Assembly (NCBI RefSeq): GCF_019711495.1
Contig: NZ_JAIGNM010000001.1
Location: 1,178,001-1,242,000, forward strand
Source of the DNA: Qipengyuania xiamenensis
GTDB taxonomy: Bacteria; Pseudomonadota; Alphaproteobacteria; Sphingomonadales; Sphingomonadaceae
DNA: 64,000 nt
Direction of reading: 5' to 3'
Both the position numbers and the translations under genes were made by a program. Numbering within the stretch: position 1 is the first letter of the stretch; each line of letters opens with the position of its first letter. Positions 14,237 through 17,067 of the stretch are shown here, piece by piece. The notes under the pieces are model-generated. The model was not told where the DNA came from. It did not search any database and saw nothing but the letters and a program-made list of their open reading frames with translations.

Positions 14237-16120
14237 ATGATGACCGAAACGCCCGATCCGTTCACCAATCTCTACGAACACCCGGCAAAGCTGGCGCGGG
14301 CGATGTTCGCTCCGCTGACGGGGGCGATCGACCCTTCGCTGATGATGGGCGACACGCCGATGAAGCCCGTAGATGCGCAGGCCTGGGCGGAAACCGGCGC
14401 GAAGCTGCAGGCGCTCTGGGCTCAGTACCAGGCCGAGCAGATGAGCAATCCTCAGGCGCTGGTCCCCTATTTCGATCCGGCGCGCTGGATGGCCCTGGCG
14501 ACCGACTGGTACAAGCAGATGCCCATCGCGCAGCCCGAACAGCAAAAGGCGCTGTGGGACGAAGGCATGGAGCTTTGGAACGCAGTGCTCGGCCAATACG
14601 GCCTCGGCCCGAAGGCGGGCGAGAACGCTGGCGGCGATGTCGAACTGCCCCGCAAGGACCGCCGCTTTGCCGACGAGAAGTGGCGCGCGCATCCCGCCTT
14701 CGCGCTGATCCACCAGACCTACCTGTTCCTTGCCGAGCGGGTCGAGCAGATGGCCGACACGATGGAGGGGCTGAACCCGCAGCAGCGCGAACAGCTCAAG
14801 TTCACCACAAAGGCGATTACCGAGGCGGCCAGCCCGGCGAACTTCCCGCTTACCAATCCCGTCGTCATGGAGCGCACGCTCGAGACCAAGGGGCAGAACC
14901 TCGTCAAGGGAATGGAGCACCTGCTCTCCGACATGCGCCGCGGGCAGCTCAGCCATACCGATGCCAGCGCCTTCACGCTGGGCGAAAATATCGCGACGAC
15001 GCCGGGCAAGGTCGTCCACGAGACCCCGCTCTACCAGCTGATCCAGTACAGCCCGACCACCGACAAGGTCATGGCGACCCCGCTCGTCATCTTCCCGCCG
15101 TGGATCAACCGCTTCTACATCCTCGATCTGAACGAGAAGAAGAGCTTCGTGAAATGGGCTGTCGACCAGGGTGTGACCGTCTTCATGGTCAGCTGGAAGT
15201 CGGCCGATGCGAGCATGAAGGATGTGATCTGGGACGATTACGTCCGCGCGCAGATCGACGCGATTGACCACATCCGCGAGCGGCTGGGCGTGCCGAGCGT
15301 CCACGCCATCGGTTACTGCGTAGCGGGCACGACGCTCGCCGCAACGATTGCCCTGCTCCATCGGCGGGGCGAGGAAGGCAAGGTCAAGAGCGCAACCTTC
15401 TTCACCGCGCAGGTCGATTTCGAAAAGGCGGGCGAACTGCTCAACTTCATCGACGATGGCCAGCTCGGCACGATCAAGGCGCTCAGCCCCGACGGGTACC
15501 TCGACGGGCGTTACATGGCCGCGACCTTCAACCTGCTGCGCGGCACGGACCTGATCTGGAACTACGTGGTCAACAACTACCTGCTTGGCGAAGACTACCC
15601 CGCCTTCGACCTGCTGCACTGGAACGGTGACGTCACCAACCTGCCCGCCAAGTGGCACCAGCAGTACCTGCGCGACCTCTACCGCGACAACCGCCTGGTC
15701 GAGGCCGATGCGCTCAGCGTCGACGGCACGCCGATCGATCTGGGGCAGGTCAAGACGCCGACCTATGTCCAGGCGGGCAAGGAAGACCATATCGCGCCCG
15801 CCGAAAGCGTCTGGCGCATCAAGGAACACTTCACTGGCCCGATCAAGTTCGTATTGGCAGGCTCAGGCCATATCGCTGGCGTGGTCAACCCGCCATCATC
15901 GGGCAAGTACCAGTACTGGACCAATGACGGCGAGCCGCGCAATCTCGCCGAATTCCGCGAAGGGGCGGAAGAACATCCCGGTAGCTGGTGGCCCGACTGG
16001 ATCGACTGGCTGCGCACGCAGGATGGCGAAACCGTGGCTGCCACCGGCAAGCGCAAACCGGGCTCGAAAGGCGATAAAGTGATCGAGGACGCGCCCGGAC
16101 GCTACGTCGCCACGCGCTGA
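14237..16120 (+). CDS. phaC: Class I polyhydroxyalkanoate synthase
   Basis: 627 residues (626 if ATG 14240 is used). PhaC polymerises (R)-3-hydroxyacyl-CoA into PHA on the granule surface. The lipase-like box G-Y-C-V-A-G holds the nucleophile Cys 361; Asp 517 (G-K-E-D-H-I) and His 545 (S-G-H-I-A-G) complete the triad with the spacing of class I enzymes. The N-terminal region (about 1-200) is the usual dimerisation/PhaC_N domain, and 'PPWINRFYILDL' and 'FMVSWKSAD' are signature stretches. The C-terminus has about 30 extra, charged residues. A phasin gene follows after 122 bases with its own promoter. Confidence 0.96.
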   Translation: MMTETPDPFTNLYEHPAKLARAMFAPLTGAIDPSLMMGDTPMKPVDAQAWAETGAKLQALWAQYQAEQMSNPQALVPYFDPARWMALATDWYKQMPIAQPEQQKALWDEGMELWNAVLGQYGLGPKAGENAGGDVELPRKDRRFADEKWRAHPAFALIHQTYLFLAERVEQMADTMEGLNPQQREQLKFTTKAITEAASPANFPLTNPVVMERTLETKGQNLVKGMEHLLSDMRRGQLSHTDASAFTLGENIATTPGKVVHETPLYQLIQYSPTTDKVMATPLVIFPPWINRFYILDLNEKKSFVKWAVDQGVTVFMVSWKSADASMKDVIWDDYVRAQIDAIDHIRERLGVPSVHAIGYCVAGTTLAATIALLHRRGEEGKVKSATFFTAQVDFEKAGELLNFIDDGQLGTIKALSPDGYLDGRYMAATFNLLRGTDLIWNYVVNNYLLGEDYPAFDLLHWNGDVTNLPAKWHQQYLRDLYRDNRLVEADALSVDGTPIDLGQVKTPTYVQAGKEDHIAPAESVWRIKEHFTGPIKFVLAGSGHIAGVVNPPSSGKYQYWTNDGEPRNLAEFREGAEEHPGSWWPDWIDWLRTQDGETVAATGKRKPGSKGDKVIEDAPGRYVATR

Positions 16121-16162: not shown

Positions 16163-16177
16163 TTGTGCAGTGCACAA
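16163..16177. promoter_or_regulatory. Putative PhaR operator 1
   Basis: TTGTGCAGTGCACAA is a perfect palindrome around a central G (arms TTGTGCA and TGCACAA). It lies 7 bases upstream of the -35 box of the phasin promoter. PhaR of alphaproteobacteria is known to bind TGC-rich dyads before phasin genes. Confidence 0.65.
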
Positions 16178-16184
16178 AAAATCC

Positions 16185-16212
16185 TTGACTTCGCACCTGC
16201 AGTGCCTATTTT
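16185..16212 (+). promoter_or_regulatory. Phasin gene promoter
   Basis: TTGACT (16185-16190), a 16-base spacer, and TATTTT (16207-16212) form a good sigma70-like promoter 31 bases before the phasin start codon. It is bracketed by two copies of the same operator; a third half-site core, GCAGTGC, lies inside the spacer at 16199. Confidence 0.65.
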
Positions 16213-16226
16213 GTGCAGTGCAACAA
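16211..16226. promoter_or_regulatory. Putative PhaR operator 2
   Basis: TTGTGCAGTGCAACAA repeats operator 1 with one inserted A. It overlaps the end of the -10 box and the expected transcription start, where a bound repressor would block RNA polymerase. Confidence 0.6.
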
Positions 16227-16242
16227 ATGCGAGGTTACTGAC

Positions 16243-17067
16243 ATGGCTGAAAGCCAGACCAAAATCGATGCTGCTGCCGAAAAGGCTTACGCCGAGGCTG
16301 CCGAAAAGAAGACCGCCGAGGTTAGCGCCAAGGCTGTCGAGAAGGCTGTCGAAGCTGACGCGACTGCGCCGGTGAAGACCGACAAGGTCGCTGAAGCCGT
16401 TGCCGCCAAGCCGAAGAAGGCTCCGGTCAAGAAGGCTGCACCGAAGAAGGCCAAGAAGGTCGCTGCGAAGAAGGCTCCGGCCAAGAAAGCAGCTGCCAAG
16501 AAGGCCGCTCCGAAGAAGGTCGCCGCCAAGAAGGCTGCACCGGCCAAGAAGCCGGTCGCCAAGAAGGCTGCTGCCAAGACCTCTGTTACCCCGATTACGA
16601 AATTGAAGGACACCATCATGGCTACCGCAAAGAACGCTAAGACCACCGACTACACCGCCAAGGCGAAGGAAATGGCTGCCGACGTCCAGACCCGCGCCAA
16701 GGCTGCTTACGACAAGAGTGCAGAAATGACCCAGGACGTCGTCGAATTCCAGAAGGGCAACCTCGAAGCTCTCGTCGAGAGCGGCAAGATCCTTGCTGGC
16801 GGCATGCAGGACATGGGCCGCACCTATGTCGAAGAAGCCAAGTCGGCTGCCGAAACCGTCCAGGGCGACGTCAAGAAGATGGCTGCCGTGAAGTCGCCGA
16901 CCGAGCTGTTCCAGCTGCAGGGCGAAATCGCACGTCGCAACTTCGACGCCATGGTTTCGACCACCTCGAAGAACACCGAAGCCATGCTCAAGCTCGCCAA
17001 CGAAGCTTTCGCTCCGCTCTCGAGCCGCATGAGCCTGGCCGCTGAGAAGGTCCGCAAGGCCGCCTAA
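16243..17067 (+). CDS. Phasin with histone-H1-like N-terminal tail
   Basis: 274 residues from ATG 16243. Residues about 60-120 are a low-complexity tail of repeated A-K-K-A, P-K-K and A-A-K-K units, like histone H1 or the tail of PhaF. Residues about 130-274 form the phasin_2 domain ('YDKSAEMTQDVVEFQKGNLEALVESG', 'MGRTYVEEAKSAAE', 'LQGEIARRNFDAMVSTTSKN'). Phasins coat PHA granules; a basic tail could tether granules to DNA. An internal in-frame ATG at 16618 with GAAGGA seven bases upstream may give a 150-residue tail-less form. Regulated by the operator pair upstream; ended by the terminator at 17143. Confidence 0.92.
   Translation: MAESQTKIDAAAEKAYAEAAEKKTAEVSAKAVEKAVEADATAPVKTDKVAEAVAAKPKKAPVKKAAPKKAKKVAAKKAPAKKAAAKKAAPKKVAAKKAAPAKKPVAKKAAAKTSVTPITKLKDTIMATAKNAKTTDYTAKAKEMAADVQTRAKAAYDKSAEMTQDVVEFQKGNLEALVESGKILAGGMQDMGRTYVEEAKSAAETVQGDVKKMAAVKSPTELFQLQGEIARRNFDAMVSTTSKNTEAMLKLANEAFAPLSSRMSLAAEKVRKAA

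Follow-up and report, generated by a model that had tools for sequence, protein, structure and literature searches.

The phasin gene of Qipengyuania xiamenensis at positions 16243–17067 of the window, i.e., of the whole 64 kb stretch of DNA that was analysed, raises the question whether one gene can give rise to two phasins, a tailed and a plain one, from two in-frame start codons. Based on the comparison described below, we consider it highly probable that it does. The gene lies on the + strand directly downstream of phaC (14237–16120, + strand), which encodes a class I PHA synthase (TIGR01838, E 1.4e-192, above cut-off; PF07167, E 2.6e-64), and ends with the stop codon TAA at 17065–17067. 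Its full-length product of 274 aa (28.7 kDa, pI 9.9) matches Phasin_2 (PF09361) with an E-value of 9.9e-22; the match comprises residues 165–263 of the 274 and positions 2–100 of the 100 profile positions, and a profile search of the genome returned no other PF09361 match. The protein begins with a Lys/Ala/Pro-rich tail of 125 aa (16243–16617, + strand), which contains 34 Lys, no Arg, 8 Glu, and 4 Asp, has a pI of 10.2, and is H1-like by composition only. No family was found for this tail in Pfam, and NCBIfam gave weak matches touching it, with scores far under the cut-off. The putative second product would be translated from the internal open reading frame that begins with a conserved ATG (16618–17067, + strand), giving a tail-less phasin of 149 aa (16.0 kDa, pI 8.75), which is 98% identical to its nearest named relative in Erythrobacter sp. 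SS_bin_117 and 96% identical to that in Qipengyuania xiapuensis. Both forms pass the PF09361 cut-off of 24.9 bits, the full-length protein with 77.5 bits and the short form with 79.6 bits. The AlphaFold model of the phasin has a pLDDT of 48.8, which is low throughout including the phasin domain, and is too poor for structural claims.

The internal start had been proposed in an earlier note on this DNA. As described there, the in-frame ATG at 16618–16620 is codon 126 of the open reading frame starting with ATG 16243, and it is preceded with a gap of 7 nt by the Shine-Dalgarno (SD) sequence GAAGGA at 16605–16610 (+ strand). This SD, with the core AAGGA 16606–16610, is conserved in relatives. The ATG was also correctly placed at the border between tail and phasin, as it lies within a linker, with the Lys/Ala/Pro tail in front and the Phasin_2 match starting 39 residues behind. 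The suggestion that the internal site has the better SD of the two could not be upheld, since its duplex of −5.8 kcal/mol is only moderate and the annotated start with GAGGT at 16231–16235 (+ strand) reaches −6.6 kcal/mol. Of the two expected product sizes, 16 kDa agrees with the computed mass, whereas 27 kDa is too low for the long form; on gels, Lys-rich proteins frequently migrate at more than their actual mass. For these duplexes CTGGATCACCTCCTTT was assumed as the 3′ end of the 16S rRNA, a pattern that has one match in the genome of the strain (pattern match alone); a longer 16S-tail pattern has no match there. The arrangement AAGGA-7 nt-ATG is present at two sites of the 64 kb when both strands are counted, and the 121 nt around ATG 16618 are not less structured than shuffled sequences (z 0.84). 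Since a 5-base SD match is also found by chance at 26 of 716 other in-frame ATGs of the family genes, and a single genome is therefore unconvincing, a comparative test was needed: an internal ATG with an SD is a weak signal when taken from one sequence, and it is the comparison that makes it strong.

Homologues of the phasin part were found in 116 of the 119 family genomes drawn, representing 89 of 91 genera, and in 59 of 60 genomes of the genus. One locus was used per homologue-bearing genome; a second fragment of G151 was left out, and the family counts exclude L001 (a duplicate of L002) and L172 (a weak second match in G112). Two loci without ATG at the site, L090 and L150, are outside the ATG-based counts (n = 114) and inside the window-rule count (n = 116). 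L090 has a GTG in place of the ATG, with AAGGA at 9 nt, and L150 has neither an ATG at the junction nor a convincing substitute. According to the window rule, the junction was placed by the phasin alignment and any in-frame ATG with an SD 4–11 nt away was accepted, and control windows were treated alike. With a 5-base SD, 96/116 family junctions have such a start, compared to 10, 5, 5, and 2 of 116 and 2 of 111 in five control windows of 40 codons. With a 4-base SD the junction count rises to 111/116 (controls 21, 11, 36, and 8 of 116 and 15 of 111), and for the genus, again with 5 bases, it is 56/59 (controls 8, 1, and 0 of 59 and 0 and 0 of 58). When instead the first ATG was taken, a 5-base SD precedes 87/114 junction ATGs of the family vs 26/716 other in-frame ATGs, and 55/59 vs 2/419 in the genus; among the 27 family genes missed in this way, several have an additional Met ahead of the junction. 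All 59 named loci, from Qipengyuania/Erythrobacter, Croceicoccus, Novosphingobium, and relatives, have a junction ATG with SD if the best ATG is taken, a choice that leans upwards and that also underlies the SD word pairs, the tree classes, the tail statistics, and parts of the duplex and shuffling data. In the first-ATG rule and in the nearest-ATG parts of the GGA and shuffling data, the ATG was chosen regardless of SD strength. As the sampled genomes are related, p-values overstate their independence. In the genus members L142 and L143, close relatives, AAAGAC replaces AAGGAC before the junction ATG, which is a natural weakening of the site.

The start codon itself stands out in the protein alignment as well. 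Met occupies the junction column in 101 of 112 rows, although the alignment was not anchored on Met. From −14 to +20, no other column exceeds 62% of the filled rows (column +4, 42/68, with 44 gaps), and apart from this one the maximum is 59% (K, 65/110). In an alignment of 35 proteins (our own and 34 named ones), the junction Met is among the columns conserved at 90% or more. The junction Met is followed by Ala, Thr, or Ser in 89 of 114 cases vs 253 of 716 for other Mets.

A short form could also arise from a separate internal promoter producing a short mRNA, in which case transcription would determine the two forms. The resulting proteins would not differ, and the short one would still be translated from the internal start with its SD. 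We consider such a promoter improbable: in a scan for sigma-70-type sites only, no match was found on the + strand after 16265 up to 17300. In front of the gene, the same kind of consensus scan gave a sigma-70-like site, TTGACT-16-TATTTT (16185–16212, + strand), which matches at 9 of 12 positions and is not functional evidence by itself. The site is flanked by the perfect palindrome TTGTGCA-G-TGCACAA (TTGTGCAGTGCACAA, 16163–16177), a candidate operator, and by a near copy of it, TTGTGCAGTGCAACAA, at 16211–16226. A TGYARTGYA motif lies within 200 nt upstream of 50 of the 103 tailed family genes. The genome has a single PF07879 (PhaR-type) match, encoded elsewhere, and the palindrome pair is perhaps the candidate operator for this protein.

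We favour two forms made from two start codons, and the codons in front of the internal one are informative in this regard. Most members encode Lys-Asp/Glu (AAG GAN) at the SD, a pair for which codon preference would frequently create such a site. It could thus be argued that K-[DE]-x-x-M is a conserved protein feature, e.g., a linker, a helix cap, or a cleavage site, and that the SD is a by-product of the AAG-GAN codons. For the 59 genes with Lys-Asp/Glu the SD indeed follows largely from the amino acids, as it is retained in 48.8 of them on average when synonymous codons are shuffled. However, 31 further members (nearest-Met rule) have Lys/Glu-Gly with the SD outside the AAG-GAN frame, and there the glycine is encoded by GGA in 27 of 31 cases vs 4 of 243 such pairs elsewhere in the 114 family genes. 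Another 20 (best-ATG rule) use Gln-Glu, Ser-Gly, Glu-Glu, Lys-Arg, and similar residues around the SD word, with L157 having no listed word, and the column just before the Met is variable (Ile in 45/110). Shuffling of synonymous codons within each gene (200 runs) in the 111 genes whose upstream frame is open for at least 40 codons, a set that includes a few without recognisable tail, left a mean of 53.2 and a maximum of 64 sites, compared to 88/111 observed. By class, 59/59 sites were observed vs 48.8 for Lys-Asp/Glu, 24/31 vs 3.1 for Lys/Glu-Gly, and 5/21 vs 1.3 for the others. A protein feature behind the motif is therefore very improbable, and as the sole explanation it was rejected on the grounds of codon choice, the varied SD residue pairs, and the synonymous shuffling. 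In a quick protein tree, calculated without a mixture model and with one of the four classes being a single gene without a recognised SD word, the frame class of the SD changed at least 14 times and its distance 21 times. As the SD hops between reading frames, selection on the internal start is thus readable at the nucleotide level.

Moreover, the mRNA is predicted to be open at the junction. The mean minimum free energy (MFE) of 45-nt windows is −3.8 kcal/mol there vs about −11 kcal/mol before and after (114 genes), and it averages −10.9 kcal/mol at further in-frame Met codons lying over 25 codons downstream (n = 581). The annotated start is more structured than the junction (−7.4 kcal/mol, 103 genes), and synonymous shuffles lower the junction value from −3.6 to −5.2 kcal/mol. 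The comparative data support that selection maintains the internal site for translation initiation throughout the family, at the nucleotide level, and that the upstream start and the open tail frame are kept as well. The first part of the earlier proposal, an internal start within the phasin gene, is supported by this family-wide selection on the start codon, on an SD in any frame, and on low mRNA structure.

Its second part, a tail-less form made from that start, finds a counterpart in natural tail-less homologues that begin at the same Met. L153, L158, and L160 have in-frame stops 5–26 codons upstream and start at the junction Met behind an SD; in L163, L166, L168, and L173 a tail cannot be recognised, and the junction Met is likewise preceded by an SD. 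In six loci (L150, L158, L163, L166, L168, L173) a different conserved gene, with a frame ending ...DGWWLLRASNTQ..., is found upstream instead of phaC; it presumably encodes a protein resembling phosphoglucomutase/phosphomannomutase. The other families of the order gave 41 PF09361 matches, of which 38 are in open frames of 113–225 aa and three in frames of 292–421 aa. Three outgroup open reading frames (182–203 aa) start 58–77 residues before the Pfam match, compared to 39 for the internal Met, and thus not exactly at the same place; they begin with short Lys/Thr/Ala-rich stretches and have no long basic tail. A fourth outgroup locus, L260, is an unrelated frame and was left out. Since most frames in other families are short and the three outgroup frames have no long basic tail, the tail looks like a family addition ahead of an existing gene. 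These short frames and the tail-less members would also fit the idea that the internal start is a disused fossil of a tail-less ancestor that gained a tail. In this case the start would be expected to decay, yet it is present with a 4-base SD in nearly all family junctions (111/116), with a domain identity down to about 30%, the frame class of the SD changed 14 times in the quick tree, and synonymous codons still favour the site. A mere fossil is therefore highly unlikely, and a tail-less ancestor may explain the origin of the internal start, not its maintenance. Seven (G046, G086, G203, G206, G216, G253, G257) of the 57 family genomes for which a PF09361 match was listed carry one or two additional matches in shorter frames of 134–243 aa, so that plain phasin can come from another gene there; L172 in G112 is a further such match.

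The upstream start is comparable to the internal one in strength. Among the 103 tailed members the duplex medians are −6.3 kcal/mol for the upstream and −5.9 kcal/mol for the internal start, with the internal SD being stronger than the upstream one in 39 and equal in 5. N-termini similar to SKIDAAAEKAYAEAA recur among relatives, and the open tail frame has a median length of 118 codons. The tails differ in length, charge, and sequence across the family, and besides the seven tail-less genes 4 of 114 lack an upstream ATG at a distance of over 30 codons (L096, L108, L115, and L165, the last at a contig end), as might be expected if only the short form mattered and the tail frame were a leader or rarely translated, but the similarly strong upstream SD, the long open frame, and the recurring N-termini make this very improbable. 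Both starts of the phasin gene appear to be maintained, and the conserved contrast, as read from the sequences, is 'tailed versus plain'. The net charge of the tails is +10 or more in 69 members, 0 to +9 in 22, and negative in 12. The 12 net acidic tails (L149, L095, L116, and nine others) are Ala/Pro-rich and not Lys-rich, and most of these members have kept the internal ATG and its SD.

For one gene with two starts, the following model can be proposed. Initiation at ATG 16243 would lead to the phasin of 274 aa with the long basic Lys/Ala/Pro tail in front, and AAGGA, located 7 nt before ATG 16618, would recruit ribosomes for synthesis of the plain phasin of 149 aa. As both forms share the phasin domain, they could coat the same PHA granule. 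The basic tail of the long form would then probably bind DNA and tie the granules to the nucleoid, whereas the short form would dilute or space the tethers. From the sequence we infer that the strain makes both proteins, in some ratio, and that the tail binds DNA. Tethering of DNA by the long form is plausible, judged only by the composition of its own tail and by analogy to PhaF and PhaM; as 12 of the 103 family tails are net acidic, it may hold for only a part of the family. A division of labour between tailed and plain phasin is a tentative reading, to which we give slightly less weight than to its opposite.

The phasins PhaF and PhaI belong to the family PF05597. The phasin described here is a PF09361 protein, for which PF05597 gives an E-value of 0.58, under the cut-off, and PF05597 has no match in the genome; neither a PF05597 match nor a C-terminal tail, the marks of a PhaF-type phasin, is thus present at 16243–17067. 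According to the available parts of two reports, PhaF of Pseudomonas has a histone-like, positively charged DNA-binding tail, and PhaI without such a tail is found on the same granules (PMC5658603, PMC3574117). The proposed pair would resemble PhaF/PhaI, as far as these parts describe them, in providing a tailed and a plain phasin for the same granules. However, PhaF and PhaI are encoded by two genes and the tail is C-terminal, whereas here it is one gene with two starts and an N-terminal tail. PhaM of Cupriavidus and PhaH of Caulobacter are likewise described, in the available text of PMC13052382, as proteins that attach to the granule, have non-specific DNA binding, and distribute the granules along the nucleoid, and the same text states for the tethers PhaM, PhaF, and PhaH that the N-terminus binds the granule and the C-terminus the DNA. 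Compared to the order given there for PhaM and PhaH, that of our phasin would be reversed. It shares with a tether the basic Lys/Ala/Pro-rich tail. An internal start is not mentioned for the PhaM/PhaH tethers in that part of PMC13052382.

In-frame internal initiation leading to N-terminal proteoforms is known, e.g., for ClpB, InfB, Cas11b, and AerR, as can be taken from the available parts of PMC11005335, PMC11899642, and PMC6199135, and in these cases, too, a second product results from an in-frame alternative start. The features to be expected of such a start, i.e., a conserved start codon with an SD at proper spacing and selection at the nucleotide level, are seen in the phasin genes compared here. 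Unlike in the known cases, the predicted start would split a tail from a phasin, and it recurs in most sampled genomes of a bacterial family. No internal start in a phasin was reported in the titles and abstract openings of the literature searched, with most subscription journals outside its coverage, nor did these point to an initiation signal or an N-terminal peptide at the site. While in-frame internal initiation as such is known, its occurrence within a phasin gene would therefore be new as far as this literature goes.

If the two-start reading is true, the phasin of nearly all sampled family genomes, which has been taken for one protein, is in fact two. The locus would also offer an example of an internal start for which selection is visible in the nucleotides, owing to an SD that moves between frames, and cloning of the long gene for bioplastic phasin engineering would probably co-express the short form. 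A single mutable ATG would then be a handle on tail density vs the number, size, and inheritance of PHA granules. More tentative still is the wider idea that in Sphingomonadaceae one dual-start phasin gene runs both coating and tethering and replaces the two-gene arrangement of PhaF/PhaI, in which case the initiation ratio would set the tail density per granule, and the site might have been rebuilt in different frames many times because this ratio matters.
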